34,662 nucleotides of DNA from an uncultured Erysipelotrichaceae bacterium. Its GTDB lineage: Bacteria; Bacillota_I; Bacilli_A; Erysipelotrichales; Erysipelotrichaceae. Location: assembly GCA_947649125.1 (NCBI GenBank), contig CANSQL010000026.1:1-34662 (forward strand), in the 5' to 3' direction. The notes beneath the pieces are model-generated. The model ran no database searches, had not been told where the DNA came from, and saw only the letters and a program-made list of their open reading frames with translations. The position numbers were made by a program, and so were the translations under genes. Shown here piece by piece: positions 3,393-21,716 of the stretch; within the stretch, counting starts at the first letter, position 1; every line of letters starts with the position of its first letter.

Positions 3393-3425
3393 AAGAACAG
3401 GGATTTACAGAAAGGAGTGTTTACA

Positions 3426-3749
3426 ATGAAATTAATTTTAGCGATTATGTCAAACGATGACAGTCCTGCCGTTTCCAGTGCTTTAACAAAGGAAAACTTT
3501 CAGGTAACACGCTTGGCAACTACCGGAGGCTTCCTGCGTGCCGGAAATACCACTTTAATTGTCGGAACTGATGATGACAAGGTGGAAAAGGCAATCGAAG
3601 TCATCGGTGAATACAGCCGCAGACGCACTGAGGTCGTACCGAGCACAGCTTCCTATGACATCGGCAGATATGCTTCATTTCCGGTTGAGGTTCAAGTCGG
3701 CGGTGCTACCATCTTCGTAGTTGATGTAGAAAAATTTGTGAAATTATAA
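3426..3749 (+). CDS. darA: Cyclic-di-AMP receptor DarA (PII-like signalling protein)
   Basis: A 107-residue cytosolic protein of the PII-like DarA/YaaQ family. It forms trimers that bind c-di-AMP and relay potassium and osmotic status; the downstream partner is unknown. The opening MKLILAIM, the family hallmark TTGGFLRAGNTTLIVG and the later RRRTEVVP stretch are all present, and the length matches exactly. The ATG at 3426 with AAAGGAGTG upstream is preferred to an in-frame GTG at 3417 that overlaps the ribosome site. It has its own promoter and terminator, so it appears monocistronic. In many Firmicutes yaaQ lies in the tmk-holB region; here it is isolated beside the accessory island. Confidence 0.93.
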   Translation: MKLILAIMSNDDSPAVSSALTKENFQVTRLATTGGFLRAGNTTLIVGTDDDKVEKAIEVIGEYSRRRTEVVPSTASYDIGRYASFPVEVQVGGATIFVVDVEKFVKL

Positions 3750-3775: not shown

Positions 3776-3807
3776 AAAGGATTGTTTGAATCAGGCAGTC
3801 CTTTTTT
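3776..3807 (+). terminator. darA terminator
   Basis: AAGGATTG (3777-3784) pairs with CAGTCCTT (3796-3803), with one G-U, around an 11-nt loop and is followed by a T6 tract. Confidence 0.8.
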
Positions 3808-3905
3808 GTTTATTCTGTACTCGCTGATCAACATATCATTGCTTCACAATCGGATACATGATTCATAATGCCTTAAAACAGATGTCTGAAAGCTTTGTAA
3901 GAGGC

Positions 3906-4139
3906 TATAATAAAGGTACGCTTATTGCATTATTGCGGTATTTGTAGTATTATATTTTCAGTTAAAGCATAGGATTTGCGTTTTAACGAAGCAGTTATTT
4001 TTGTTGAAAAGAATGCGAAAACACTTGATCGTTGCCTTGTCACGTCATTGCTGTTAAGCAGGATCAGAATATACGGGCGAATTTTTATTCAAGATTCGTC
4101 GGGCGAAGCATGCCCTTTTATTATATAAGGAGCGATTTC
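3906..4139 (+). promoter_or_regulatory. Probable loaP promoter (-10) and structured 5' leader
   Basis: TATAAT stands at 3906-3911 without a convincing -35. The roughly 220 nt to the loaP ATG hold several inverted repeats. These are TTGATC/GATCAG (4025-4030 with 4062-4067) enclosing TGCT-GTTA-AGCA (4049-4060), CGAAT/ATTCG (4078-4082 with 4094-4098), and GGGC/GCCC (4101-4104 with 4112-4115) followed by TTTTA. LoaP acts on RNA hairpins in the leaders of the operons it controls, so this is where its loading site would be. The promoter call is weak. Confidence 0.4.
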
Positions 4140-4655
4140 ATGGGCTGGTATGTCATACAGGTTAGTGTAAATCATGAAGCGAAAACAGCGAATCGATGCT
4201 GCACAATGATATCAAAGGATATTTTACGGGAATGCTTTATTCCTGAATATATACGAATGAAGCGTTACAACGGTTCATGGCATGAGGAAAGAGAAATTTT
4301 GTTTCCCGGGTATGTATTCATGATCAGTGATCATATCGTTCAGCTAAATATGGAATTAAAAAGAATTCCTGATTTTGCGCGTATTATCGGTAAAAAGAAA
4401 AGTGATATTTTTCCTTTGGATGCAGAGGAAATTGCCTTTTTGAAGGAGTTTGCCCATCGAGATCATACGGTAGCGATGTCACATGGGTATATTGAGGGGG
4501 ACCGCATTATCGTATGTGACGGGCCGATGAAGGGCAAGGAAGGCTTAATCGTCAGAATCAATCGCCATAAGCGTATTGCGGAAATACAGCTTAAAATGTT
4601 CAACAAAAATGCTGTTATAAAAGTAGGATTGGAAATCATAAGCAAGAGTCGTTAA
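4140..4655 (+). CDS. loaP: Antiterminator LoaP (NusG paralogue), polysaccharide operon regulator
   Basis: A 171-residue protein with an N-terminal NGN domain beginning MGWYVIQVSVNHEAKTANRC. The C-terminal KOW domain (about 115-171) contains GDRIIVCDGPMKGKEGLIVRINRHKRIAEI in outline and the LoaP-typical ending VGLEIISKSR. LoaP binds elongating RNA polymerase and lets it pass terminators in long biosynthetic operons. The frame is open further upstream, but only the ATG at 4140 has a strong ribosome site (AAGGAG, 4128-4133) and gives the NGN start. It is the first gene of the polysaccharide operon and is followed at once by a terminator-like hairpin, consistent with processive antitermination of the genes behind it. 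Confidence 0.88.
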   Translation: MGWYVIQVSVNHEAKTANRCCTMISKDILRECFIPEYIRMKRYNGSWHEEREILFPGYVFMISDHIVQLNMELKRIPDFARIIGKKKSDIFPLDAEEIAFLKEFAHRDHTVAMSHGYIEGDRIIVCDGPMKGKEGLIVRINRHKRIAEIQLKMFNKNAVIKVGLEIISKSR

Positions 4656-4669
4656 GAAGCTTGCTTTTT
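4640..4669 (+). terminator. Intrinsic-terminator-like hairpin overlapping the loaP stop codon
   Basis: AAGCAAG (4640-4646) pairs with CTTGCTT (4660-4666) across a 13-nt loop and runs into TTTTT. The loop contains the loaP TAA. Placed between loaP and the structural genes, it could hold back the rest of the operon unless LoaP-modified polymerase passes it. The 7-bp stem is modest. Confidence 0.55.
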
Positions 4670-4689
4670 GTTTGGAGGAATTTTATTTT

Positions 4690-5907
4690 ATGAAGCATAG
4701 AACGATACCGTTCTCACCGCCGGATATCGGTGAGCGTGAAAAGCAGGCAGTAAGCGAAGCATTGTCTTCGGGTTGGATTACTACAGGACCGAGAACAAAG
4801 CAGTTTGAAACAGCAATTTCCGATTATGTCGGTACAAACAAAACCGTTTGTCTTAACAGCGCTACTGCCGCAATGGAATTGACGCTGCGTGTTTTGGGAA
4901 TCGGTCCCGGTGATGAGGTGATCGTTCCTGCTTATACATATACTGCCTCTTGTTCGGTTATCTGTCATGTCGGCGCAACTCCGGTCATGATCGATTCGCA
5001 GAAGGACAGTGTTGAAATGGATTATGACGCAATGGAAGCGGCAATCAATGAGAAAACGAAGGCGATCATTGCGGTCGATGTGGCGGGAATCGTTTGTGAT
5101 TATGAGCGCATCTATGAAGCAGTCAACAGAAAAAGCAGCTTATTTCACGCAGCCAATGATATGCAGAAAGCATTTCAGCGCGTTATCGTGATGTCTGATT
5201 GTGCGCACGGCTTCGGTGCTGTAAGAAGAGGAAAGCATGCCGGTATGATCGCTGATTTTACCTGTTATTCCTTTCACGCAGTGAAGAATTTGACAACTGC
5301 CGAGGGCGGTGCCGTCACATGGATTGCGCATGAGGGCATGGATGATGAGGCTGTCTACAAGCAATATCAATTATTATCCCTGCACGGGCAAAATAAAGAC
5401 GCTTTGAGTAAAAATAAATCAGGCGGTTGGGAATACGATATCATCGCTCCCTACTATAAATGTAATATGACGGATATTCAGGCAAGTATCGGCATCGTAC
5501 AGCTGGAGCGTTATGAGGCTATGCTGAAGCGGCGCTTTGAAATTATCGCAATGTATGATGAAGCCTTTAAGAACGAGCCGATACAGTGCTTGAAGCATCA
5601 ATCGGACATTCATCACTCCAGCGGTCATTTGTATTTTACAAGAATAGACGGAATGAACGAAGTACAGCGAAATAAATTCATCGAAAGCATGGCGGAAAAG
5701 GGCGTATCCTGTAATGTGCATTATAAACCGCTGCCGATGCTGACAGCGTATAAGCGCATGGGCTTTGATATCGGGAATTATCCGAATGCGTATCGATTGT
5801 ATGAAAATGAAATCACCTTGCCGCTGTACAGCACATTGAGCGATGAGGATGTAAAAGCGGTAATACAGGCTTATCGGGAATGTTTAGAGGAAGTACAATG
5901 CATTTAA
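4690..5907 (+). CDS. DegT/DnrJ/EryC1-family PLP sugar aminotransferase
   Basis: A 405-residue fold-type-I PLP enzyme that transfers an amino group from glutamate to a keto-sugar nucleotide. The pyridine-binding aspartate is D170 in MSDCAHGFGA and the Schiff-base lysine is K199 in SFHAVKNLTTAEGG. The typical start IPFSPPDIGEREKQAV and the GPRTKQFE segment are present. The ATG at 4690 follows TTGGAGGAA. It lies directly ahead of the initiating sugar-phosphate transferase and overlaps it, so it may make the 4-amino sugar used as the first residue, as PglE does for PglC. The matching 4,6-dehydratase and acetyltransferase are not in this window, so the exact substrate is open. Confidence 0.85.
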   Translation: MKHRTIPFSPPDIGEREKQAVSEALSSGWITTGPRTKQFETAISDYVGTNKTVCLNSATAAMELTLRVLGIGPGDEVIVPAYTYTASCSVICHVGATPVMIDSQKDSVEMDYDAMEAAINEKTKAIIAVDVAGIVCDYERIYEAVNRKSSLFHAANDMQKAFQRVIVMSDCAHGFGAVRRGKHAGMIADFTCYSFHAVKNLTTAEGGAVTWIAHEGMDDEAVYKQYQLLSLHGQNKDALSKNKSGGWEYDIIAPYYKCNMTDIQASIGIVQLERYEAMLKRRFEIIAMYDEAFKNEPIQCLKHQSDIHHSSGHLYFTRIDGMNEVQRNKFIESMAEKGVSCNVHYKPLPMLTAYKRMGFDIGNYPNAYRLYENEITLPLYSTLSDEDVKAVIQAYRECLEEVQCI

Positions 5908-6581
5908 GAACATGGAATGAGCTTCCCGAATGGATGAGAAATGAAGAAGTCAGGAAATATCATGAAATATTGAAACGGAAACGATTCACATTGATGCTGA
6001 AGCGTTTTTTTGATGTCGTGATGTCGCTGTTTCTGCTGATTCTCTTGTCTTGGCTGTTTTTGATTTTGTCGATATGGATCAAGGCAGACAGCAAGGGCAG
6101 TGTGTTTTATCGTCAAGAGCGGATCACACAATACGGGAAACGCTTCCGTATCTATAAGTTTCGAACAATGGTGAGTGATGCGGATAAAATCGGTGCATTG
6201 GTTACGACAGCAAATGATGCGAGAATCACCAAGGTAGGGTCAAAAATCAGAAAATGTCGCTTGGATGAAATTCCGCAGCTGATCAATGTATTGAAGGGTG
6301 AAATGAGCTTTGTGGGGACAAGACCCGAGGTAGAGAAGTATGTGCGTGAGTACAGCGATGAGATGAAGGCAACGCTGTTGTTGCCGGCGGGGGTTACATC
6401 GTTTGCCAGCATACGCTTTAAAGACGAGGACAGTCTTATCGCTGAGTATTCGCAAGCATTAGGAATAGATGAAGCCTATATCAAAAAGGTGCTGCCGAAA
6501 AAAATGGCGCTCAATCTGGAATATATAAGACAAATCAGTTTTTGGAATGATGTGAAAATTTGTATTAAGACAGTACTGTGA
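5898..6581 (+). CDS. Initiating phosphoglycosyltransferase (bacterial sugar transferase, PglC/WcaJ catalytic type)
   Basis: A 227-residue monotopic membrane enzyme that transfers a sugar-1-phosphate from a UDP-sugar to undecaprenyl phosphate, starting each repeat unit. An amphipathic lead is followed by the re-entrant hydrophobic helix (about 37-59). Then come VFYRQER, the YKFRTM motif and the signature LDEIPQLINVLKGEMSFVG with TRPEVEKYV. The length fits the minimal catalytic-domain form. I prefer the ATG at 5898 with AGAGGAAG upstream, giving a 10-bp overlap with the aminotransferase; an ATG at 5880 is possible. It has Thr where most relatives have Pro in the G(P/T)RPE motif. Confidence 0.9.
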   Translation: MHLRTWNELPEWMRNEEVRKYHEILKRKRFTLMLKRFFDVVMSLFLLILLSWLFLILSIWIKADSKGSVFYRQERITQYGKRFRIYKFRTMVSDADKIGALVTTANDARITKVGSKIRKCRLDEIPQLINVLKGEMSFVGTRPEVEKYVREYSDEMKATLLLPAGVTSFASIRFKDEDSLIAEYSQALGIDEAYIKKVLPKKMALNLEYIRQISFWNDVKICIKTVL

Positions 6582-6599
6582 GTGAAAGGAAGTGATAAA

Positions 6600-7610
6600 A
6601 TGGAATGCGTTTCAATTGTAGTACCGATTTTAAATGAAGAAGCCTATATAAAACAATTTTTAACGGCCGTATCAGCACAAGATTATCCGCATAATGCTAT
6701 GGAGCTACTGTTGGTTGACGGATGTTCAACAGATCAAACAAGAGCGTTGATATACCAATCAATGGAAAATAGTGATATTAGTTTTAAAGTTTTAAATAAT
6801 CCAAAGAAAATCACACCCGTAGCATTAAATATCGGTATTAAAGAAAGTCGTTACAACTACATTGTTCGGTTGGATGCCCATAGTATATATCCAAAAAATT
6901 ATATAAGTAAGTGCATCAGTTATCTAAAAAGTACGAATGCTGATAATGTTGGATGTATCTTAAAAACAGCATATCATAATCACAAAGAAAAAATGATTGC
7001 TTCAATGCTTTCATCAAAATTCGGTGTAGGTAATTCAGGTTTTAGGACAAATGCCAAAAGCGGTTATGTTGATACAGTTCCCTTCGGTACTTTCAGAAAA
7101 GAATTATTTCAGAGAATTGGCTTATTCGATGAGCGACTTTCCAGAAATCAAGACAGCGAATTTAATTCGCGCATTATCAAAAGCGGGGGAAAGATTTATT
7201 TATTTGACGACATTGAAATAACATACTATCCTCGTAATACCGTAAAAAAGCTATTGGCAATGGGAAAGAAAAACGGTAGTTGGAATATCTATACTGCTCA
7301 TTTATGTCCGGGATCGATGCGTCTCAGACACTTTATACCCTTTGGATTTGTTTTAAGTCTATTAATCGGTATAATCTCAATTATCGCAAGATGGCAAATC
7401 ATAACATTTCTGTTTATAGGTGAATTAGCATTATATTTATTATTAGATTTAGTCTTTAGTATAAAATCTTCTGACAGCTTGAAAGATACTTTAATGTTGA
7501 TGTTTTTATTTCCGTCATTCCATATTGCATACGGTATCGGTTCTTTTCAAGGTCTTATTAAATGTCTAATTTCAAGAAAAAAAGCTTATCAGCTTGAATA
7601 CTTAACCTAA
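6600..7610 (+). CDS. Family 2 glycosyltransferase, ExoA-like
   Basis: A 336-residue inverting GT-A enzyme. The opening SIVVPILNEEAYI, the LLVDGCSTDQT segment and the metal-binding RLDAHS motif correspond to ExoA-type glycosyltransferases. The VPFGTFRKELF and RNQDSEFNSRI segments match the acceptor-side motif. Two to three hydrophobic segments at the C-terminus (about 245-325) anchor it in the membrane, also as in ExoA. The ATG at 6600 with AAAGGAAGTG upstream is preferred to an in-frame GTG at 6582. From here the base composition looks clearly more AT-rich than in the two preceding genes. The donor and linkage cannot be read from sequence. Confidence 0.85.
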   Translation: MECVSIVVPILNEEAYIKQFLTAVSAQDYPHNAMELLLVDGCSTDQTRALIYQSMENSDISFKVLNNPKKITPVALNIGIKESRYNYIVRLDAHSIYPKNYISKCISYLKSTNADNVGCILKTAYHNHKEKMIASMLSSKFGVGNSGFRTNAKSGYVDTVPFGTFRKELFQRIGLFDERLSRNQDSEFNSRIIKSGGKIYLFDDIEITYYPRNTVKKLLAMGKKNGSWNIYTAHLCPGSMRLRHFIPFGFVLSLLIGIISIIARWQIITFLFIGELALYLLLDLVFSIKSSDSLKDTLMLMFLFPSFHIAYGIGSFQGLIKCLISRKKAYQLEYLT

Positions 7611-7624
7611 GTAGGAGAAATTAT

Positions 7625-8422
7625 ATGAACGCAAAAAATGAACGAACCGTACCAATGGCTGATATTGAAGTTTTAATCGCCTCTTTAAATCAAAAAGATA
7701 CTTCATTGATTGAGTCGATGAATGTAAAGACTGATGCTATTATAGCTAATCAAGCAAATGACTATGATTACATCAATGTAATGAAAGACTCACAACGCTG
7801 TCAAATGATTACGACACCGTACCGTGGTGTGGGAAAGAACAGAAATATTGCTTTATTTGCAGCAAAAGCTGATATATGCTTAATTGCTGATGATGATATT
7901 CTTTATTACGATAATTATAAAGATATTGTTTCAGAGGCTTTTCATAAATTAAAAGATGCAGACATCATTATCTTTAACATAGACGATTGTGAGGATAATG
8001 GTAGAAGAGTTAATAAAAAAATTAAAAGGTTGAAATGGTACAACCTTTTAAACTACGGAGCAGTAAGAATAGCCTTTAAAAGACAAAGCATTGTAAATAA
8101 CAGCGTATTGTTTTCAACTGCATTTGGCGGCGGTGCCGTATATAGTGCCGGTGAGGACTCATTATTTTTAATTGAAGCTTATCGAAAAAAACTACATATC
8201 TATACTTATCCCAAAACAATCTTAAAGCTTCAAGAGTCAGAATCTACCTGGTTCAAAGGATATGATGAAAAATATTTTTATGATAAAGGTAAATTTTTAG
8301 CTGTTGCTTTTCCTAAACTAAAATGGCTGCTTGTTCCTGTTTTCTTATTAAAAGAATGTAAGAAATCGTCATTAAGCATGTTATCTTGTTGTAAGAATAT
8401 ATATAAAGGAGCATTTAATTAA
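7625..8422 (+). CDS. Family 2 glycosyltransferase, small divergent
   Basis: A 265-residue GT-A-like protein. The start DIEVLIASLNQKD and a segment ending in RGVGKNRNIALFAAKADICL lead to the metal-binding IADDDILY (about 88-95), the usual order for family 2. SAGEDSLFLIEAYRKK is the typical acceptor-side acidic motif. A short hydrophobic stretch near the C-terminus (about 237-247) may touch the membrane. AGGAGAAATTAT precedes the ATG. The spacing to its neighbours is 14 and 22 bp, so it is in the operon. Donor sugar unknown. Confidence 0.78.
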   Translation: MNAKNERTVPMADIEVLIASLNQKDTSLIESMNVKTDAIIANQANDYDYINVMKDSQRCQMITTPYRGVGKNRNIALFAAKADICLIADDDILYYDNYKDIVSEAFHKLKDADIIIFNIDDCEDNGRRVNKKIKRLKWYNLLNYGAVRIAFKRQSIVNNSVLFSTAFGGGAVYSAGEDSLFLIEAYRKKLHIYTYPKTILKLQESESTWFKGYDEKYFYDKGKFLAVAFPKLKWLLVPVFLLKECKKSSLSMLSCCKNIYKGAFN

Positions 8423-8444
8423 TAAAATGAAAGGATGATTCATA

Positions 8445-9539
8445 ATGAACTACGCATTAATCGGCTGTGGCAGAATATCTCCAAATCATATTGCTGCAGC
8501 TCTAAAAAACAGTCTGACTATAAAGGCCGTTTGTGATGTTAAAAGAGAAAGAATGAGTGAATTATTAGCAAAATTTGAATTGGACAGTTCTAATATAAAT
8601 CAATACTTAGATTATAAAGAAATGCTGAAAAACGAAAAAATAGATTTAGTTGCGATAGCTACCGAATCAGGCCTGCATGCTGAAATAGCATTGTATTGTA
8701 TCGAAAAAGGAATTCACTGCATTATTGAAAAACCTATGGCGATGAATATGAAAGATGCACAAAAAATATGTGATTTAGCAAAAGAAAAGAATGTAGTCGT
8801 ATGTGCCAACCATCAAAACCGATTCAATAAATCAATTCAAAAAATACATGAGGCAATGGAAGCAGGTATGTTTGGCAAACTGCTTCACGGTACAGCGCAT
8901 GTGAAATGGAATCGAAATAAAGGATATTATGATCAGGCGTTGTGGCGAGGCACTTGGGACAATGACGGCGGCTGCTTGATGAATCAATGTATTCACAACA
9001 TTGATCTACTGCGTTGGATGATGCAAGATGAGGTAGATGAAGTAATGGCATATACCGATAATTTGAAGCATGATTATATTCAAGCAGAGGATTTAGGAAT
9101 GGCACTGGTCAAATTCAAAAACGGTGCTTACGGGATTATTGAAGGTACAGTAAATGTATATCCGAGTAATCTGGAAGAAACCTTATATCTTTTCGGTGAT
9201 AAAGGGACAGTAAAAGCAGGCGGTAAATCTGTTAATATTATTGAAGAATGGTGCTTTAAAGATGATACAAGCAATCCGGAAGAAATAAAATTAAAATATA
9301 GTGAAAATCCTGAAAATATATACGGATTCGGCCATAATCCCTTATATGCAGATGTTATTCATGCAATTTCAACGCACACCAAGCCATTGGTAGATGCAGA
9401 GGCCGGCAAGCGAGCTTTAGAATTGGTGCTTGCAATATATCAATCAGCGTATTTAGGAAAACCGGTTAAATTACCGTTGAGCATTGATGTCTCCTCCACC
9501 GATTTCTTTGATATGTTCACAAAGAAAGGAGTGGATTAG
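8445..9539 (+). CDS. wbpB: Gfo/Idh/MocA oxidoreductase, WlbA/WbpB-like UDP-GlcNAc-uronate 3-dehydrogenase
   Basis: A 364-residue NAD-dependent enzyme predicted to oxidise the 3-hydroxyl of UDP-GlcNAcA. The Rossmann motif is ALIGCGRISPNH (4-15) and the catalytic lysine K96 sits in IIEKPMAMN. The WlbA-type active-site run WRGTWDNDGGCLMNQCIHNIDLL has H184 and D187. That segment is what separates WlbA from the general family. The next gene is the aminotransferase that would accept its keto product, starting with no intervening base. A GAAAGGATGA ribosome site precedes the start. Confidence 0.85.
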   Translation: MNYALIGCGRISPNHIAAALKNSLTIKAVCDVKRERMSELLAKFELDSSNINQYLDYKEMLKNEKIDLVAIATESGLHAEIALYCIEKGIHCIIEKPMAMNMKDAQKICDLAKEKNVVVCANHQNRFNKSIQKIHEAMEAGMFGKLLHGTAHVKWNRNKGYYDQALWRGTWDNDGGCLMNQCIHNIDLLRWMMQDEVDEVMAYTDNLKHDYIQAEDLGMALVKFKNGAYGIIEGTVNVYPSNLEETLYLFGDKGTVKAGGKSVNIIEEWCFKDDTSNPEEIKLKYSENPENIYGFGHNPLYADVIHAISTHTKPLVDAEAGKRALELVLAIYQSAYLGKPVKLPLSIDVSSTDFFDMFTKKGVD

Positions 9540-10682
9540 ATGGAATTTATTGATTTAAAAAAACAGTATGAAATCCTAAAGCAGGAAATTGATGCTAATA
9601 TTCAAGCAGTTTTAGATGACGGTCACTATATAATGGGAGCTGCTGTTTCTGAACTTGAAAAAGAATTGGCAGATTATATCGGTGTAAAGCATTGTATCAC
9701 ATGTGCAAACGGGACCGATGCTTTATCGCTTGCATTAATGGCATGGGGTATTAAAAGCGGTGATGCAATATTCGTACCTTCCTTTACATTTTATGCCACA
9801 GCTGAAGTAGTATCTTTGATTGGAGCAACCCCGATATTTATTGACAGTGATCCGCGTACTTTTAACATAGACGTTATTCATCTTCGCAGCGTGATTGAAA
9901 ATGTAATCAAGGAAGGAAAGCTTAATCCACGAGCAATTATCCCTGTTGATTTATTTGGCCAACCGGCGGAATATGAAGAAATAATGAAAATTGCAAAGGA
10001 CTATAATCTATTAGTGCTGGAAGATGGTGCACAGGGATTCGGAGGTACAATAAACGGCAAAAAAGCATGCAGCTTCGGCGATATCTCTACCACTTCTTTT
10101 TTTCCTGCGAAACCTCTTGGCTGTTACGGCGATGGCGGTGCCGTTTTCACTGACAGTGATGTATATTATGAAAAGCTTGTTTCTTTAAGAGTACATGGAA
10201 AAGGAAGCTATAAATATGATAATGTCAGAGTAGGGTTAAATTCACGTCTTGATACTCTGCAGGCAGCAATATTGTTACCTAAGCTTCATGCCTTTATCGA
10301 TTATGAGTTGAACAGTCGTAATGAAATTGCGGATATATATAACCATGAATTGAATGATATCGTAATAACACCTCTCGTTAAAGAAAATATGCAAAGCAGT
10401 TGGGCACAATATACAATTTTATTAAATAATGAGCAGGAACGAAACGAGCTTCAGCAATATCTAAAATCAAAAGGTGTACCATCCATGATCTATTATCCTA
10501 AACCTTTACATATGCAAAGTGTATATAAGGATCATAATATTTATTCAGAAGATTTAAAAAATGCAGAGAATCTCAGTCGCATATGCTTAAGCTTACCAAT
10601 GCATCCTTACCTAGAAAGGGAGCAAATAATTACTGTATGTAATGAAATCAAATTATATCTACAAAAGGAAATGAAATTATGA
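9540..10682 (+). CDS. wbpE: PLP aminotransferase, WbpE/WlbC-like (UDP-3-keto-GlcNAcA 3-aminotransferase)
   Basis: A 380-residue DegT-family enzyme that would convert UDP-3-keto-GlcNAcA to the 3-amino sugar. The start MEFIDLKKQYE, the GHYIMG segment, EDGAQGFGG (D162) and the Schiff-base lysine K191 in TSFFPAKPLGCYGDGG are all family hallmarks. The FFPAKPLG form is typical of WbpE-type sugar aminotransferases. It begins directly after the dehydrogenase stop codon and overlaps the acyltransferase by four bases (ATGA), indicating tight coupling of the three steps. It differs clearly from the aminotransferase at 4690, so the cluster makes at least two aminated sugars. Confidence 0.87.
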   Translation: MEFIDLKKQYEILKQEIDANIQAVLDDGHYIMGAAVSELEKELADYIGVKHCITCANGTDALSLALMAWGIKSGDAIFVPSFTFYATAEVVSLIGATPIFIDSDPRTFNIDVIHLRSVIENVIKEGKLNPRAIIPVDLFGQPAEYEEIMKIAKDYNLLVLEDGAQGFGGTINGKKACSFGDISTTSFFPAKPLGCYGDGGAVFTDSDVYYEKLVSLRVHGKGSYKYDNVRVGLNSRLDTLQAAILLPKLHAFIDYELNSRNEIADIYNHELNDIVITPLVKENMQSSWAQYTILLNNEQERNELQQYLKSKGVPSMIYYPKPLHMQSVYKDHNIYSEDLKNAENLSRICLSLPMHPYLEREQIITVCNEIKLYLQKEMKL

Positions 10683-11578
10683 AAAAGTTTCTTTTAAGCG
10701 AGTGCTTCCATGATAACGTACAAAAAGATGCCGAGTTTGAAGCATTAGGCATTTTAGATTCAAAAGTAACACTGCCCTTTTTAACTTTTATCGAAAATGA
10801 AACATATATTGATAAGCTACTACATAATCCGCATATAAGTGCTGTTATCACAAACGAAGCGATATATGAAAAGCATTTAAAAGATATTGACTGCGGTTGT
10901 TATATATGTACCAATCCTCGTCTTACATTTTTTAAACTGCATAATTCATTAAGTCATCATAGTGAATATCAACGACCGCAGTTCGAAACTAAAATCGGTA
11001 ATGATTGTGAAGTATCACCTTTAGCGCATATCAATAAAAATAATGTAATCATCGGCAATCATGTCATCATAGAGGAATTTGTATCTATCAAAGAAAATGT
11101 AATCATCGGTGATCATTCAATTATCAGAGCCGGAGCTGTAATCGGCGGTACCGGTTTTGAATTTAAAAAAGATGAAGATTCCTTGTTTCATGTCGATCAT
11201 TGCGGCGGTGTCATAATCGGTAAGCATGTAGAAATTCAATATAACAGCTGTGTCGATAAAGCTATATATCCTTGGGATAATACTGAAATCGGCGATTATT
11301 CAAAACTAGATAACTTAATTCATATCGGTCATGCTGTAAAAATAAGAGAACGCGTAATGATTCCTGCTATGGCTGCTGTCGGTGGTAGAGTTGAAATCGG
11401 CGATGATTCATGGATCGGATTGGCAAGCGTAATACGCAACGGTCTGCATATCGGTTCAAATGCACGAGCAAATATGGGTGCCGTAGTTACTAAGGATATT
11501 GCAGACAATCAAGCAGTCAGCGGCAATTTCGCTATCGAACATAAGCAATTTATAGAAAGGTTGAAAAAAGGAGAATAG
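10679..11578 (+). CDS. LpxD-like left-handed beta-helix N-acyltransferase
   Basis: A 299-residue protein. The N-terminal 100 residues form an alpha/beta domain, followed by hexapeptide repeats of a left-handed beta-helix (about 105-285; IIGNHVIIEE, VIIGDHSIIRAGAV). GTGFEF at 158-163 and the active-site-like LDNLIHIGHAVKI (H215, H218) correspond to LpxD, the lipid A N-acyltransferase. In a Gram-positive polysaccharide operon, right behind a 3-aminotransferase, it more likely acetylates the 3-amino group, the step done elsewhere by the unrelated-length WbpD. The acyl donor (acetyl-CoA or acyl carrier protein) is not determinable. The four-base overlap with the aminotransferase supports a shared pathway. 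Confidence 0.75.
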   Translation: MKKFLLSECFHDNVQKDAEFEALGILDSKVTLPFLTFIENETYIDKLLHNPHISAVITNEAIYEKHLKDIDCGCYICTNPRLTFFKLHNSLSHHSEYQRPQFETKIGNDCEVSPLAHINKNNVIIGNHVIIEEFVSIKENVIIGDHSIIRAGAVIGGTGFEFKKDEDSLFHVDHCGGVIIGKHVEIQYNSCVDKAIYPWDNTEIGDYSKLDNLIHIGHAVKIRERVMIPAMAAVGGRVEIGDDSWIGLASVIRNGLHIGSNARANMGAVVTKDIADNQAVSGNFAIEHKQFIERLKKGE

Positions 11579-11581
11579 TAT

Positions 11582-12895
11582 ATGAAACAAATGTTGTTAA
11601 ATAAGATTAAAAACAAAGAAATTATTGTAGGTGTTGTTGGCCTCGGCTATGTGGGCTTGCCGCTTGCTGTTGAAAAAGCAAAAGCAGGTTTCCGCACAAT
11701 CGGTTTTGATATACAAAAGGAAAAGGTTAATTCAGTAAACCAAGGAAAAAACTATATCGGTGATGTTGTTGATAAGGATCTGGCTGAACTGGTAAAAAAC
11801 AATATGCTGTCGGCAACAACCGATTTCGGCTTCATTAAAGATGTGGATTTCATTGCCATTTGCGTGCCGACACCTTTAGATGCGCATCAACAGCCTGATA
11901 TTTCATTTGTAAGAGATTCCGGTATCGCCGTCTCAAAGTATTTGCGTAAAGGAACAATGGTTGTACTGGAATCTTCAACTTATCCGGGCACAACTGAAGA
12001 GCTGTTAAAGCCTATTTTAGAGAAAGGATCCGGTCTGAAGTGCGGTGAGGATTTTTATTTAGGGTTCTCCCCTGAACGCGTCGATCCCGGTAATGCAATT
12101 TATCACACTAAAAATACACCGAAGGTTGTCGGAGCCATTGGAAATGATGCAACTGAGGTCATCGCCACAATGTATCGTGCAGTTTTAGAAGGAGACATTC
12201 ATGAAGTATCCTCACCGGCTGTCGCTGAGCTTGAAAAAATATTAGAAAACACATATCGTAATATCAATATCGGCTTAGTGAATGAATTATGTATGTTGTG
12301 TGAAAAGATGGGCATTTCTGCATGGGAAGTAATTGATGCCGCAAAAACAAAACCGTTTGGTTATCAGGCATTTTATCCGGGACCGGGCTTAGGCGGACAC
12401 TGTATTCCTTTAGACCCTTATTATCTCACATGGAAAGCAAGAGAATATGGGTTTCATACCTCTATGATTGAAAACAGCATGATTATTAATGACAAAATGC
12501 CTGAATATTGTGTTGAACGTTGTTATAAGGTACTAAATAAACAAAAGAAAGCAATGGCAAACGCCAAAATATTAGTATTAGGTGTAGCATATAAAAATGA
12601 TATTGATGATTATCGTGAAAGTCCTGCATTGCGCTTAATTGAACTGTTAAACGCAGAAGGAGCTACCGTTGATTTTTATGATCCTTATATTCCGGAATAT
12701 CGTTATAAGGGAAAAAATCACCGCGGCATAGAAGCAATTTATCCCGAAGTCATTAAAAACTATGATTTAATAGTTATCGCAACAGCTCATAAGAGTTATG
12801 ATTTAGAAATGCTTCAACAAAACGCTAAGGCAATTTTTGATACACGTAACGCTCTAAAAAACATTACCGATCGCAACAATATTGAATTACTGTAA
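11582..12895 (+). CDS. wbpA: UDP-N-acetylglucosamine 6-dehydrogenase (WbpA-like)
   Basis: A 437-residue UDP-sugar dehydrogenase that makes the uronic acid by two NAD-dependent oxidations at C6. The Rossmann motif GVVGLGYVGLPLA is at residues 17-29. ESSTYPGTTEE and SPERVDPGN line the active site, and the catalytic Cys274 is in GPGLGGHCIPLDPYYLTWKA. The long GGHCIPLDP form favours the UDP-GlcNAc/UDP-ManNAc branch over UDP-glucose dehydrogenase. It supplies the substrate for the 3-dehydrogenase at 8445. The start follows GGAGAATAGTAT with only three bases after the acyltransferase stop. Confidence 0.9.
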   Translation: MKQMLLNKIKNKEIIVGVVGLGYVGLPLAVEKAKAGFRTIGFDIQKEKVNSVNQGKNYIGDVVDKDLAELVKNNMLSATTDFGFIKDVDFIAICVPTPLDAHQQPDISFVRDSGIAVSKYLRKGTMVVLESSTYPGTTEELLKPILEKGSGLKCGEDFYLGFSPERVDPGNAIYHTKNTPKVVGAIGNDATEVIATMYRAVLEGDIHEVSSPAVAELEKILENTYRNINIGLVNELCMLCEKMGISAWEVIDAAKTKPFGYQAFYPGPGLGGHCIPLDPYYLTWKAREYGFHTSMIENSMIINDKMPEYCVERCYKVLNKQKKAMANAKILVLGVAYKNDIDDYRESPALRLIELLNAEGATVDFYDPYIPEYRYKGKNHRGIEAIYPEVIKNYDLIVIATAHKSYDLEMLQQNAKAIFDTRNALKNITDRNNIELL

Positions 12896-12908
12896 AACGA
12901 GGTTTTGT

Positions 12909-14042
12909 ATGAATATTGTAATGCTGCTGGATAACTGCTTTGATCCTGACGTCCGTGTATATAAAGAAGCTGACTATTTGGTGAAACAAGGAAATAATGT
13001 ACAGATCATCTGTTTAGATAAAAAGAACAAATATATAGATAAACAAGATGAAATAAAGGATGGAATTCACATACATCGTATATTCTGCCGTAATGATAAA
13101 ATAACCCGACTGCTTGAAAACAAATTTTTTTCGTATTTTACAGCCCTATTTTACGCCTACTGGCTGATGATGTTTTTTATCCGGGCAAAACATTATTTAA
13201 AACACAAAAGCGTAGACATCCTGCATTGTCATGATGTTGTAATGTCATATGGATCAAGATGGTTTTTTAAAAAACAAATAAAAGTATTCGATATGCACGA
13301 ATATTATTTAAAGGATGATAAAAGCTTCAAGGACCGAATCATGAAGTATATCGTATCCTCAGCACAAGACCATAGTAAGTGGATTATATATGTAAATGAA
13401 AAACAAATACTGAAATTAAAAGAAAAAAATAGGAATAAATTAGTTCTGCTGCCTAATTATCCGTCTCAATCCATTTTCACCGATATAACGAAAACAGCAT
13501 CCGATCGCATTCGCATAGGCTATGTCGGAGCTGTAAGAGATTTTAAATCATTAGCTGCTTTAATTGATATAAATGATATTGTGAAGGATAAATTTGATAT
13601 AAAAATTTACGGCTACGGCAGTGCTTATGACTCTTTAATCGAGTATGAAAGAAGTAAAGGGTACTTAAGCATATTAACAGGCAGTTATAACGGAATCAAT
13701 GAAATAGAAAACATTTATAAGAACATTGACATTTTGTATTGTGTTTATGATAACCACATCGCAAATTGGAAGTATTCCTATCCGGTTAAATTTTATGAGG
13801 GCATTCTCACAAAAACTCCGATTATAGTATCAAAAGATAGCACAGTCGGTGATTTCACCGAAGCAAAGAATATCGGATATACATTAAATTTAGATGATAA
13901 AGATGCTTTCCTACGCTTATTGACTGAAGAAATTAATAGTCAAAGTTATAAAACAAAGCAAATAAATCTTGAAAAAATACAGTATCACTATACATGGGAG
14001 AATCAAGTACAACGACTAAATGTTATTTATGAAAAATCATGA
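12909..14042 (+). CDS. GT-B glycosyltransferase (family 4-like)
   Basis: A 377-residue enzyme with two Rossmann-like halves. The N-terminal half opens NIVMLLDNCFDPDVRVYKEA and contains ILHCHDVV and VFDMHEYY. The C-terminal half begins at about 200 with IRIGYVGAVRDFKSL and contains the nucleotide-sugar-binding region SYPVKFYEGILTKTPIIVS. This is the GT4-type layout for transfer from a nucleotide sugar onto the lipid-linked repeat. A hydrophobic patch at about 70-90 probably lies against the membrane. The ATG at 12909 with ACGAGG upstream is chosen over an upstream TTG that would overlap the dehydrogenase gene. Confidence 0.78.
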   Translation: MNIVMLLDNCFDPDVRVYKEADYLVKQGNNVQIICLDKKNKYIDKQDEIKDGIHIHRIFCRNDKITRLLENKFFSYFTALFYAYWLMMFFIRAKHYLKHKSVDILHCHDVVMSYGSRWFFKKQIKVFDMHEYYLKDDKSFKDRIMKYIVSSAQDHSKWIIYVNEKQILKLKEKNRNKLVLLPNYPSQSIFTDITKTASDRIRIGYVGAVRDFKSLAALIDINDIVKDKFDIKIYGYGSAYDSLIEYERSKGYLSILTGSYNGINEIENIYKNIDILYCVYDNHIANWKYSYPVKFYEGILTKTPIIVSKDSTVGDFTEAKNIGYTLNLDDKDAFLRLLTEEINSQSYKTKQINLEKIQYHYTWENQVQRLNVIYEKS

Positions 14043-14050
14043 GGTGTATA

Positions 14051-15427
14051 ATGAATAAAAAAATTATGTTATCAATTCAATCCGGTAAAACAGAACTGAT
14101 ATTTTTCATTCTGTACAAGCTGTTAATCGATTTTTCTTATATAACTATAATTAGAGATAATTATAATGAGTACAATCAATTTATCACTGATTTCAGCTTA
14201 ATAAAATATATCATAGCCTTTGTTTTTCTGATAACGTTATATCTACTGAATATTAAAGCGCTGTTGTCTGTTTCTAAATTAATAGTTAAGCTTTTTCTTT
14301 TGTTGATGTATGTACCCATTTCGACTGTCTATGCGTGCAAAAATGACAGTACCGTATTCTTTATGACAATTACTGCCGGATTTTTTATTTTCATTATAAC
14401 AGCTTCATTCATGATCAGGAATATAAAAATAAAAAAAGAGGAAAAGAAAGATTCATTCATAGAGCTTACAACCAATTTATTATACTATGGCTTTATTGCA
14501 ATAACCGTAATTTTAGTTTTATCATGCATATACTTCAATGGTTTACCAACCTTAACTGCTTTAAATTTAAGAGATGTATATGAGGTAAGACAAGCATTTT
14601 ATCTGCCTCGTTATTTATATTACCTTTATGAATTTGAAGCAGGTTTCATTATTTATTTCTTAATCATTGTAAATATGAAAAGAAAAAATATCAAGGCACT
14701 GATTGTATTTATCTTCATACAATTCCTATTCTTTTTATGGAAAGGTGATAAGAGCGCAGTTTTTGGTCTAATTACAGTTATAGCAGTCTATTTAATTTCA
14801 GGAAAGCTTCAATTAAATAAAATGCTTTGTAAATTATTTTTCTCATTTACATCAATTTCTCTAATTCTGTTTTATACAGTATCAAGCTTACCTTTTTTAC
14901 TATTAATTCGAAGAATGTTGATAATACCTGCCAATTTAAAATTTATCTATTATGATTTTTTTATGAATCATGACTATATAGGTATCGTCGGAACAGTGCT
15001 CAATTCATTTTTAAAAATTCCCGATCCGTATGCGCAGCTACCTTATCAAAATTTAATCAGCAAGCTTTACTTTAATAAAGTAGAAATGTGGTCAAATACC
15101 GGTTTTTTAGCAGAAGGATATGCCAGAGGCGGTATTATCGGCAGCTTACTGATATCAGGTTTAATGGGTGTTATTCTGTATTTAATATACTTAGGAGTTA
15201 AAAAAACTGACTCTCGATTTATTTTAAGTATAGCCATAATACCAATGATAACTCTGAATGACGGCTATTTATTAACATCATTTACATTTGGTTCTATCGG
15301 ATTATTATGTGTAACATGCTTTTTCTTTGATTTAAAGTATCTAAACATGGATTTTAAAAAGATTATAAATATAAAAGGGCGGTGGTTAAATGATGAAACA
15401 GCTAATAAAAAATCTAAGACAGAATAA
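14051..15427 (+). CDS. Wzy-like polysaccharide polymerase, multi-pass membrane protein
   Basis: A 458-residue, very hydrophobic protein with about eleven predicted membrane segments and one larger extracytoplasmic loop in the second half (about 285-355). That layout is characteristic of O-antigen/capsule polymerases. Wzy proteins share little sequence, so the call rests on topology and position next to the flippase. GAGGTG at 14041-14046 favours the ATG at 14051; a start at 14039 overlapping the previous stop codon is also possible. The gene overlaps the flippase by 38 bp. It would join repeat units at the outer face of the membrane. Confidence 0.72.
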   Translation: MNKKIMLSIQSGKTELIFFILYKLLIDFSYITIIRDNYNEYNQFITDFSLIKYIIAFVFLITLYLLNIKALLSVSKLIVKLFLLLMYVPISTVYACKNDSTVFFMTITAGFFIFIITASFMIRNIKIKKEEKKDSFIELTTNLLYYGFIAITVILVLSCIYFNGLPTLTALNLRDVYEVRQAFYLPRYLYYLYEFEAGFIIYFLIIVNMKRKNIKALIVFIFIQFLFFLWKGDKSAVFGLITVIAVYLISGKLQLNKMLCKLFFSFTSISLILFYTVSSLPFLLLIRRMLIIPANLKFIYYDFFMNHDYIGIVGTVLNSFLKIPDPYAQLPYQNLISKLYFNKVEMWSNTGFLAEGYARGGIIGSLLISGLMGVILYLIYLGVKKTDSRFILSIAIIPMITLNDGYLLTSFTFGSIGLLCVTCFFFDLKYLNMDFKKIINIKGRWLNDETANKKSKTE

Positions 15428-16670
15428 GGCACTGGCATCGATTACAACACTGGCATCAGGCTCTTTAATAGCACAGGTTATTACTGTTCTGGTTTCACCC
15501 ATCACTACCCGAATCTTTACTCCGGAGGAATTAGGAACATATACATTAATAATCACCGCTGTAAATATGTTTGGTCCGATCATATGCTTACGATATGATC
15601 TGGCAATTGTAACTGAAAAAACAGACAGGAACTCTCTTGCTATATTTAAATTAAGTGTTATTGTGTGCGTTCTTATGAGTTTGTTTGTTTCATTTGGTTA
15701 CTTTATCTATTTTCAAATGAACGAGGCTTATCATTCACTCACATATACTGTTGTGATTTTATTTATATTACTTTTAACAACCGGTCTGACAAATGCGTTA
15801 ACATCCTATAATAATCGTAATAGGCAATATAAATTAATGACATCGGTTTATGTGATAAGAACAACAGCACAAAATCTTCTCATGGTTATGTCCGGTATGC
15901 TTAAAACTGGAGTATTCGGTCTGATATCTTCTCAAGTTATATCACAGCTTTTAGGCATAAAAAAACAAGGGGAAGAACTGAGCGAACATAAAAAAGAATT
16001 GAAAAAGATAAGTAAAAACGATATCCTTGATGTCGCAAAAAAGTATAAAAAACAACTCTTATATTCTACTCCTGCTTCCTTCGCTAACAGTTTTTCTTAT
16101 TCATCGATAAACCTTTTTATCAGTTCGTTATTTAACAACACGATATTGGGGTATTATTCAATCTCATATCGTGTATTAGGATTACCATTAAATATCATCA
16201 GCAGTAATGTATCTAAAGTTTTTTTTGAGGATGCCAGTAATGAATACCACAAAAAGGGGTCTTTTAAGCATAGCTTACTTCGTACATCATCATTTTTAGG
16301 TATAATATCAGTAATAATGGTGATAGGCTTAGTTTTATTCTCTCCTCTTGCATTTAAAATATTTTTCGGTCCCGATTGGGAGCAAGCAGGGGTATTTGTT
16401 CAAATCTTAGCACCTATGTTTGGAATACGATTTATTGTAAACGGTGTAAGTATTGCTTTGATCATAGCACAGCGTCAAGATTTTGAACTCATGATACAAG
16501 CATTGTTTATTATATGTTCCGTTGCAGGATACTTAATTGCTCGTTTTTTTATGTGGAGCATTACGAAATATCTTGTATTTATCTCTATTTCATATTCTGT
16601 AATTTATATAATATTTTTTATTTTCATTTATAACAGTTCTAAAAATATGGAGAATACAAATCATGAATAA
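15390..16670 (+). CDS. Wzx-like lipid-linked oligosaccharide flippase
   Basis: A 426-residue protein of the polysaccharide transporter (PST/MVF) group with about 12 membrane segments. The N-terminal ASGSLIAQVITVLVSPITTR and TPEELGTYTL are the family's recognisable opening. A charged cytoplasmic stretch (about 191-215) splits the two six-helix halves. It moves undecaprenyl-pyrophosphate-linked repeats outward for Wzy. Two adjacent ATG codons (15390, 15393) follow GGGCGGTGG. The 38-bp overlap with the polymerase gene points to coupled translation. It also overlaps the next gene by 8 bp. Confidence 0.87.
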   Translation: MMKQLIKNLRQNKALASITTLASGSLIAQVITVLVSPITTRIFTPEELGTYTLIITAVNMFGPIICLRYDLAIVTEKTDRNSLAIFKLSVIVCVLMSLFVSFGYFIYFQMNEAYHSLTYTVVILFILLLTTGLTNALTSYNNRNRQYKLMTSVYVIRTTAQNLLMVMSGMLKTGVFGLISSQVISQLLGIKKQGEELSEHKKELKKISKNDILDVAKKYKKQLLYSTPASFANSFSYSSINLFISSLFNNTILGYYSISYRVLGLPLNIISSNVSKVFFEDASNEYHKKGSFKHSLLRTSSFLGIISVIMVIGLVLFSPLAFKIFFGPDWEQAGVFVQILAPMFGIRFIVNGVSIALIIAQRQDFELMIQALFIICSVAGYLIARFFMWSITKYLVFISISYSVIYIIFFIFIYNSSKNMENTNHE

Positions 16671-17949
16671 ACGCAATATTATCAAAATCACCTGTTTTTT
16701 AATTGTTGTTGTTTTATATTTTATTTTATGCTCCTATAATGTTAGTGTAAAACACAAGAAGCAAAATGATGAATATAATAAATTTACAAAATCTATGCCG
16801 CAAATACATAATCCCGATTATAATTATCTCGCCGGCCTATGGGATAAAACAGTTACAAAAGCACTGAATTCATCTGATAAAAGCATTGATAATCAAGCAG
16901 AGCTTTTATCGGTGCCCTTATACTCGGCCTTTTCCATGGGAAACCTTAACTACATAAATCAATTTAAAACATATTTCCAAAAGGTTTATGATAGTAATGC
17001 TTATGAAATAGCGAATAAACAAGCTAAATGTAATGTTATCTTTTTATCATCTTGTTTCATTAATCTATGCGAAAAAAATAACATAGATTATAATTATACG
17101 ATAAAAGAAAAAACTTTGAAGGAACTTTTATCTATATATAATCAATCTAACAGTTACAATTATATAAGCTTCAAAAATATGAAAGAAAGTATTCAATTTA
17201 AGTTAAGCGATCAATCAGTACACTATAAGCATTTAAAAGCTGTTAATAATGAAGAATTGTTAATCGTCGCAGCTGCTGCTAATCTATATCCATCTAATAA
17301 AAATTCAGTCTCTCTGCAGGAAATAGTTTCATTTATCAAGCCATTAACCTCAAAAGAGACAGTTGTATATATTAATGATTATTGGCTGTATCAGCCCGGT
17401 ATTCGCTATGATAACCCCAATTATGCTTACTCTAATGCCGATTCCTTGAACAAAACAAATGTAAAAATTGACATAGCACAAGATATCATGAGTTTTTCGC
17501 GCATGCCGATTATTTTACAAAGTATGAGACAAGCCGTGGACCAAGACTATAAGGAGCATATTAACAAGTTATTGAAGGATTTATCTAAGCATTACCTTAG
17601 AGATTTGATAGTTTATCCCGGTGATACTGATCGGATATTCAAAACCAAAAATTTTATGAATGGTGATAACGGTTATTTAAAAGCAGCGAATAATAAATAT
17701 TACCAACCTTTTGAATTATCAACTAATATTTATTTTGGAGCCTGGGCTTTTTTGAATACAGAAGAAATTAGAAATTTTTATACATATGTTTATTCTTTGT
17801 TTCCATTAAAAGAAAATGAAGTTTTATCAATCAATACAGGATTTACAAAATCAAAGACAAAGCAAGAAACTACAAATTCTAACCAACTATTAAAAGACTA
17901 TATGGAATTGAACTGCTATCTGGCTGCCTATTTAGATTTACTACCTTAA
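16663..17949 (+). CDS. Unrecognised membrane-anchored extracytoplasmic protein of the polysaccharide operon
   Basis: 428 residues. One hydrophobic segment at about 7-26 (IIKITCFLIVVVLYFILC) is preceded by positive charges and acts as a signal anchor. The rest is soluble, helix-rich and full of Asn, Lys and Tyr. DYWLYQPGIRYDNPNYAYSN (about 240-259) and FELSTNIYFGAWAFLNTEE are aromatic-rich stretches of the sort found in carbohydrate-binding surfaces. I recognise no family. Position between the flippase and the muramidase suggests polymer modification, chain-length control or cleavage at the cell surface. An alpha/alpha-toroid lyase or hydrolase fold is conceivable but not shown. Confidence 0.6.
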   Translation: MNKRNIIKITCFLIVVVLYFILCSYNVSVKHKKQNDEYNKFTKSMPQIHNPDYNYLAGLWDKTVTKALNSSDKSIDNQAELLSVPLYSAFSMGNLNYINQFKTYFQKVYDSNAYEIANKQAKCNVIFLSSCFINLCEKNNIDYNYTIKEKTLKELLSIYNQSNSYNYISFKNMKESIQFKLSDQSVHYKHLKAVNNEELLIVAAAANLYPSNKNSVSLQEIVSFIKPLTSKETVVYINDYWLYQPGIRYDNPNYAYSNADSLNKTNVKIDIAQDIMSFSRMPIILQSMRQAVDQDYKEHINKLLKDLSKHYLRDLIVYPGDTDRIFKTKNFMNGDNGYLKAANNKYYQPFELSTNIYFGAWAFLNTEEIRNFYTYVYSLFPLKENEVLSINTGFTKSKTKQETTNSNQLLKDYMELNCYLAAYLDLLP

Positions 17950-17979
17950 TAAGGACAATACAGAGAAAGGGGAATTAAA

Positions 17980-20052: not shown

Positions 20053-20063
20053 GTTTTCCCTTT

Positions 20064-20088
20064 TATAACACAGATAATAGGTGTTATA
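20064..20088. terminator. Possible end-of-operon hairpin
   Basis: TATAACAC (20064-20071) pairs with GTGTTATA (20081-20088), and the flanking TTT/AAA can extend it. No clear T tract follows on the plus strand, so it is a weak terminator at best. Confidence 0.35.
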
Positions 20089-20170
20089 TAAAAGTATAAT
20101 GTCTGTCTTTTCCTCATATCATGAATTATGTCATTTTGTGTGAACTGTAGAAATCATGTAAAAAAAGGTG

Positions 20171-20176
20171 TATAAT
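20171..20176 (+). promoter_or_regulatory. -10 element for the LytR-CpsA-Psr gene
   Basis: TATAAT stands 33 bp before the ATG at 20209; no good -35 is visible at the right distance. It suggests that the ligase can be transcribed independently of the polysaccharide operon. Confidence 0.35.
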
Positions 20177-20208
20177 AACAAAGAATTTATAAGTGAGGTG
20201 TTTTGCGA

Positions 20209-21682: not shown

Positions 21683-21716
21683 AAGCAATGAGTTCCTTGA
21701 ATTCATTGCTTTTTTA
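21683..21716 (+). terminator. Terminator of the LytR-CpsA-Psr gene
   Basis: AAGCAATGA (21683-21691) pairs with TCATTGCTT (21703-21711) and is followed by a T run. Confidence 0.9.

Follow-up and report, generated by a model that had tools for sequence, protein, structure and literature searches.

A terminator-like hairpin at the 3' end of loaP and a conserved leader RNA upstream of it suggest an autogenous antitermination gate before a polysaccharide operon in Erysipelotrichaceae

Results

The loaP locus and its transcription unit

The window, i.e. the whole stretch of 34,662 nucleotides that was analysed, derives from an uncultured Erysipelotrichaceae bacterium (GCA_947649125.1, contig CANSQL010000026.1). 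It carries a gene for a NusG paralogue, loaP, in front of a long run of polysaccharide genes. The following features belong to this unit or border it:

3776-3804, plus strand: strong terminator of the upstream gene (-13.5 kcal/mol, TTTGTTT tail)
3925-3953, plus strand: probable loaP promoter (TTGCAT at 3925-3930, 17 nt, TATTAT at 3948-3953)
4013-4137, plus strand: conserved loaP leader RNA of about 120 nt with two covarying helices (covariance model R1)
4023-4050, plus strand: element 1, a hairpin with the invariant core CGUYGC-NNN-GUCRCG (pattern match 4029-4046) and compensatory changes in the flanking stem
4076-4100, plus strand: helix 2, a sequence-variable covarying stem (4076-4083 with 4093-4100; 7 of 8 pairs changed on both sides)
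4101-4115, plus strand: element 2 (GGGCGAAGCATGCCC and TTTTATTA, GGCGAAGC apex), just upstream of the ribosome site
4140-4655, plus strand: loaP, encoding a NusG paralogue of 171 aa (NF033641; Pfam NusG and KOW)
4640-4673, plus strand: loaP-end terminator hairpin (4640-4666) and U-rich tail (4665-4673), with the loaP stop codon inside the loop
4674-5907, plus strand: first gene behind the terminator, a DegT/DnrJ/EryC1 aminotransferase (Shine-Dalgarno GGAGGA 4674-4679, start 4690)
5880-21675, plus strand: rest of the polysaccharide unit, with sugar transferase, glycosyltransferases, dehydrogenases, a possible polymerase, flippase, choline-binding GH25 protein and LCP (CpsA-type) transferase
21683-21711, plus strand: strong terminator, the probable end of the unit (-14.4 kcal/mol, TTTTATAT tail)

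The first gene of the unit had been described as the antiterminator gene loaP from the letters of the sequence, and this was borne out. Its product scored 177.6 bits with the NCBIfam model NF033641 (cutoff 125), contains the N-terminal NusG and the KOW domains, and is encoded next to a biosynthetic operon (4690-21675), as is characteristic of the LoaP family. The same protein remained far under the cutoffs of the NusG, UpxY and RfaH models (52.1 bits against 100 for UpxY, NF033644).

The upstream gene (3417-3749) encodes a cyclic-di-AMP receptor-like protein, and the terminator behind it insulates the loaP unit. A TTGCAW-N17-TATTAT motif was recognized by eye at the same place upstream of the leader in five loci, including L033, L038, L042 and L043; the consensus promoter scan did not pick up the 3925-3953 site. 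On the other side of loaP, only 34 nt, including the ribosome site, separate the stop codon from the start of the aminotransferase gene, which leaves no room for a promoter in this gap. The genes that follow are co-directional and mostly overlap or touch each other. Aminotransferases are found among them, the match to a polymerase is weak, and the choline-binding GH25 protein and the LCP transferase come after the flippase. No canonical terminator other than that at 4640 was detected between 4140 and 21683, and the other intragenic candidates had poor tails or interrupted stems. In a relative (G004) the loaP-polysaccharide unit is 96 % identical across the compared stretch, and the hairpin is the same. 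A cultured relative, Longibaculum muris DSM 29487 (L007), shares the layout.

No Rho was found in the genome from which the window derives (98.7 % complete): the best match to the Rho model reached 45 bits, compared to a cutoff of 509, and is presumably another ATPase. One NusA is encoded. The genome also contains two adjacent NusG paralogues (G000:C13:41516-42722, L002 and L003) with 28-29 % identity to LoaP, the better of which scores about 104 bits and is under the LoaP cutoff; similar tandem pairs occur in relatives. Elsewhere in the window, the minus strand at 591-703 matched the Rfam family STnc490 with 62.8 bits (gathering threshold 56), which is surprising outside enterobacteria.

The hairpin at the 3' end of loaP

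The preliminary description placed a hairpin over the loaP stop codon at 4640-4669 (AAGCAAGAGTCGTTAAGAAGCTTGCTTTTT), and both direct reading and RNA folding confirmed it. The arm AAGCAAG (4640-4646) pairs with CTTGCTT (4660-4666), and the 13-nt loop between them (4647-4659, AGTCGTTAAGAAG) contains the stop codon TAA at 4653-4655. The tail reads TTTGTTT (4667-4673), with a TTTTT run beginning at 4665. A stem-loop followed by a U-rich tract, as in an intrinsic terminator, is thus present (7 bp, -9.9 kcal/mol, TTTTTGTTT); it is a weak one, with three G-C pairs, and its stem is weaker than those of the operon-end terminators of the window (-13 to -15.6 kcal/mol). A simple terminator scan skips the hairpin because the loop exceeds the limit of 8 nt.

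The minimum free energy of the 30-mer RNA, -9.9 kcal/mol, corresponds to a z score of -2.68 and was equalled in 4 of 200 shuffles. When the local 80 nt were shuffled with a Markov model, a terminator of -9.0 kcal/mol or lower with a U-tract appeared 31 times in 2000 (about 1.6 %). Taken alone, the hairpin is modestly beyond what chance gives. Folding of the nascent RNA with upstream lengths from 45 to 530 nt gave the five inner stem pairs a probability of about 1.0, and no competing or antiterminator structure was predicted at any of these lengths.

Predicted terminators behind loaP across the order

The strong evidence for a terminator at the end of loaP is comparative, namely the recurrence of predicted terminators at the same position in relatives. 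The LoaP loci compared were gathered from the whole order, a score against the queries of 150 bits or more defining the close LoaPs, and other co-directional gene pairs in stretches of the same genomes served as controls. With a looser energy limit and a fixed reach of 90 nt from the stop codon, a terminator was found in 31 of 38 LoaP loci and in 8 of 50 control pairs. For gaps of 20-60 nt to a co-directional gene, a terminator (-7 kcal/mol or lower with a U-tract) was found behind 13 of 17 close LoaPs and in 1 of 27 controls. For gaps of 20-150 nt the counts were 20/24 and 9/50 (Fisher 9e-8). In all these comparisons the controls are few, at most 50 pairs, the detector thresholds were fixed after the first examples had been seen and the loci are related by descent, so that the P values overstate independence. 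Seven of the 38 loci have no terminator behind loaP. One genome (G069) holds the same loaP twice (L017 and L041), once with a terminator behind it and once without.

Compared to AAGCAAG/CTTGCTT in the window, the terminator arms are AGCAAGT/ACTTGCT in L038, AGCAAGAA/TTCTTGCT in L010, AAGAACATA/TATGTTCTT in L011, AAAAGCTC/GAGCTTTT in L016 and AGTTTCTAAG/CTTAGAAACT in L037. Behind loaP, the position of these predicted terminators is conserved while the arm sequences differ by lineage. In the clade of the window, alignment by eye indicated that the 5' arm is encoded in the codons for the C-terminal Ser-Lys of LoaP (AGC AAG) and that the remainder varies with compensation. The relation to the stop codon is variable: 16 of the terminators overlap it and 15 lie downstream. 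On a LoaP tree of 34 rows the overlap changes at least 4-5 times and the downstream placement at least 6 times, and absence of the terminator is scattered. Overlap with the stop codon was counted in 16/30 terminators of loaP, compared to 2/9 and 3/14 in controls.

LoaP searches over the class and the phylum gave only three further loci, all from one other family, and the search of a plasmid collection gave one remote LoaP, from Klebsiella (25 % identity). A PDB search with LoaP returned only chains annotated as NusG, with no named LoaP-RNA complex among them.

The leader RNA upstream of loaP

Nineteen leaders, including that of the window, were aligned and used for the covariance model R1. They share the invariant core and fold into two helices. 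In the alignment 88.6 % of the cells were paired, compared to 28.8-43.8 % when the structure was slid along the 19 sequences; double-sided changes numbered 71 against 12-23, and the covariation score was 0.526 against at most 0.130. One pair of the core changes from C-G to U-A in five sequences. Two motifs recur at a near-constant distance from loaP, CGTYGCNNNGTCRCG at about -95 to -117 and GGCGAAGC at about -28 to -39. No Rfam family was found for the leader or for the loaP-end hairpin, with either gathering or permissive thresholds.

By its association with LoaP, element 1 is a candidate for the site at which LoaP is loaded. A simple scan for UNCG tetraloops upstream of 39 close LoaP loci found them in four, with about one expected. 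Element 2 could be a weak terminator or a pause-like hairpin before loaP, and a run of at least four U follows it in 12 of 27 loaP leaders. When element 2 was considered as an ops-like hairpin of the non-template DNA, the DNA folding was weak and inconsistent.

In the genome of the window R1 has a single site, 4013-4137, with an E value of 1.8e-16, the window being itself part of the training set; the next match had an E value of 0.53. The exact element 1 pattern, with no mismatches, likewise occurs once in this genome. Across the order, 40 of the 288 genomes had R1 sites, and almost every one of these 40 encodes a LoaP over or near the cutoff as well; the exact core pattern was present in 29 genomes, compared to a handful for the reversed control. 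In most cases loaP directly follows the R1 site. In L143, L144 and L184 the site stands between loaP and the polysaccharide genes, in L183 it follows a NusG paralogue that is below the LoaP cutoff, and in L141, L142, L181 and L182 it precedes a polysaccharide operon with no adjacent loaP. This is the distribution that a target site of a trans-acting LoaP should show.

The element 1 pattern also matched exactly in G017 and G069:C8; these matches were rejected, as they look like chance occurrences inside coding sequence and are not accompanied by element 2. A weaker R1 match (L185, G023:C104:28363-28482, E 3.2e-7), with a core unlike element 1, precedes phage terminase/portal-like genes, hinting at a comparable antitermination leader in a prophage. 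In L137 (G013:C8) a decayed loaP with its own leader lies directly upstream of an intact leader-loaP pair. In another family (f20), the LoaP loci L072-L074 share AAGCGAAGCTnnGCACACTT in an AT-rich stem about 90-105 nt upstream of loaP, and this stem is perhaps that family's own LoaP leader.

Discussion

The hairpin at the end of loaP would be a weak, factor-sensitive intrinsic terminator dividing loaP from the polysaccharide genes. We consider it probable that LoaP, loaded on the leader of its own mRNA, takes RNA polymerase past this terminator and so opens about 17 kb of polysaccharide genes to transcription; the role of element 1 as the LoaP site, the termination at the hairpin and its relief by LoaP are inferred from the sequence. 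Against this reading count the weakness of the hairpin, the seven loaP loci with no terminator and the lack of resemblance between element 1 and the published UNCG-tetraloop site. Transcription would start near 3960 and proceed through the structured leader (4013-4137) into loaP. As long as LoaP is scarce, most of it would end at 4667-4673 and give a short loaP mRNA. Once LoaP accumulates, it would bind element 1 of the leader on the next transcripts, replace NusG in the elongation complex and antagonise NusA, and the complex so modified would pass the terminator and transcribe the polysaccharide genes. The arrangement would be an autogenous gate, in which the short transcript must yield LoaP before the long transcript appears.

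Several steps are modelled on the LoaP of B. velezensis, which requires a small hairpin in the leader RNA, antagonises NusA at intrinsic terminators, reads through further terminators inside the operon and is aided by a downstream pause (PMC12691694). In B. subtilis, the suboptimal terminators that depend on Nus factors are reported to have weak A-U pairs at the end of the stem and a U-tract that is interrupted (PMC8060035). The loaP-end terminator likewise has terminal A-U pairs, and its U-tract is broken by G4670. By analogy it would be of the Nus-dependent kind, the one that LoaP is best placed to override.

Partial terminators are common between the genes of one operon, and the loaP-end hairpin is weak. 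It could therefore be a constitutive partial terminator which sets stoichiometry only, giving much loaP mRNA and little polysaccharide mRNA with no control by LoaP. We regard this as unlikely: the gene before the terminator itself encodes an antiterminator, a conserved leader lies upstream of it, and at the 20-60 nt spacing other genes are followed by a terminator much less often.

A further reading, that loaP is transcribed alone and its transcript simply ends at the hairpin while the genes behind it use a promoter inside loaP, seems distinctly unlikely. Such a reading would agree with terminators beside stop codons being the norm in Bacillota (PMC7858274). However, the gap to the next gene is only 34 nt, and the consensus scan, which misses the presumed loaP promoter too, gave nothing promoter-like at 3800-4700 on either strand. 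In addition, where the leader lies behind loaP (G029, G019), there is no terminator hairpin after loaP except element 1 itself.

The preliminary description proposed that LoaP itself carries polymerase through the hairpin, a part which the identity of the gene, the recurrence of terminators behind loaP and the conserved leader support indirectly. It also proposed that a ribosome finishing loaP melts the stem, so that translation of loaP sets the readthrough. The stop codon does lie within the loop, and a ribosome following polymerase closely would sit on the 5' arm. A ribosome switch selected for such melting would preserve the overlap with the stop codon, which is not preserved although the terminators are, so this part of the proposal is unsupported. 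Terminators a few nucleotides from stop codons are moreover reported to be a mark of runaway transcription, as a coupled ribosome would mask them (PMC7858274), and Bacillota have been classed as runaway (PMC13323073); this signature implies that the hairpin works because ribosomes lag behind. Mutually exclusive structures between which a ribosome could choose, as in a translation-coupled attenuator, were not predicted, the core pairs of the terminator forming at every upstream length. We thus consider a translation-coupled switch very unlikely. Saving of space, in a system where transcription and translation are uncoupled, accounts better for the hairpin running over the stop codon.

It is highly improbable that the hairpin is a chance structure, or one that serves the 3' end or stability of the mRNA with no role in termination: local shuffles do yield an equally good candidate now and then, but hairpins with U-tracts behind them recur at the same position in independent sequences.

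The autogenous gate has its closest known counterpart in the dfn/mln systems of B. velezensis, which also combine a NusG paralogue of the LoaP family, a leader hairpin upstream of one or more intrinsic terminators, a long biosynthetic operon and terminators within the unit (PMC12691694). As there, a conserved RNA hairpin is present in the 5' leader of the target operon, here as part of a leader with two covarying helices. The key terminator of dfn/mln is located in the leader before the biosynthetic genes, whereas here it lies directly behind loaP and the leader is upstream of loaP; the published leader site of the dfn/mln type carries a UNCG tetraloop, which the core of element 1 does not resemble in the simple scan. 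Unlike in dfn/mln, the target here is surface polysaccharide, in a genome with no Rho.

In phage lambda, an RNA loading site (nutL) lies upstream of the N gene and a terminator (tL1) downstream of it, with a long operon behind, and readthrough is autogenous. The layout is the same as at the loaP locus, but the protein and the RNA site are unrelated, and lambda N needs NusA, NusB, NusE and NusG, whereas LoaP acts against NusA. In the bgl operon of E. coli the antiterminator gene bglG also comes first and has terminators on both sides. Here, too, a terminator precedes the next gene, and element 2 at 4101 could be the second one. The two differ in that each bgl terminator has an alternative hairpin which BglG locks, and no such hairpins are predicted at the loaP locus. 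The UpxY antiterminators of Bacteroides capsule operons are similarly NusG paralogues encoded by the first gene of a capsular polysaccharide operon; they belong to another subfamily, as the model scores above indicate, and to another phylum.

More tentatively, and with somewhat less than even confidence, the observations could be extended to a class of LoaP operons, in Bacillota of the Erysipelotrichales type, whose antiterminator gates its own operon. A new structured leader RNA (two covarying helices and the GGCGAAGC hairpin, with no Rfam match) would load LoaP upstream of loaP. The terminator that follows loaP, which changes both sequence and position in the course of evolution, would make the surface polysaccharide await LoaP. 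With element 2 as a second terminator or a pause, this may form a positive-feedback, possibly bistable, capsule switch that operates with neither Rho nor translation coupling.

The R1 leader marks polysaccharide operons in LoaP-encoding genomes, and the model provides a candidate RNA signature for finding targets of LoaP. As the organism has no Rho, any effect of LoaP in it must act on intrinsic termination, which makes it a clean test case for antitermination. If the gate is true, it would give a compact rule by which gut Bacillota switch long surface-polysaccharide operons through elongation and not initiation.
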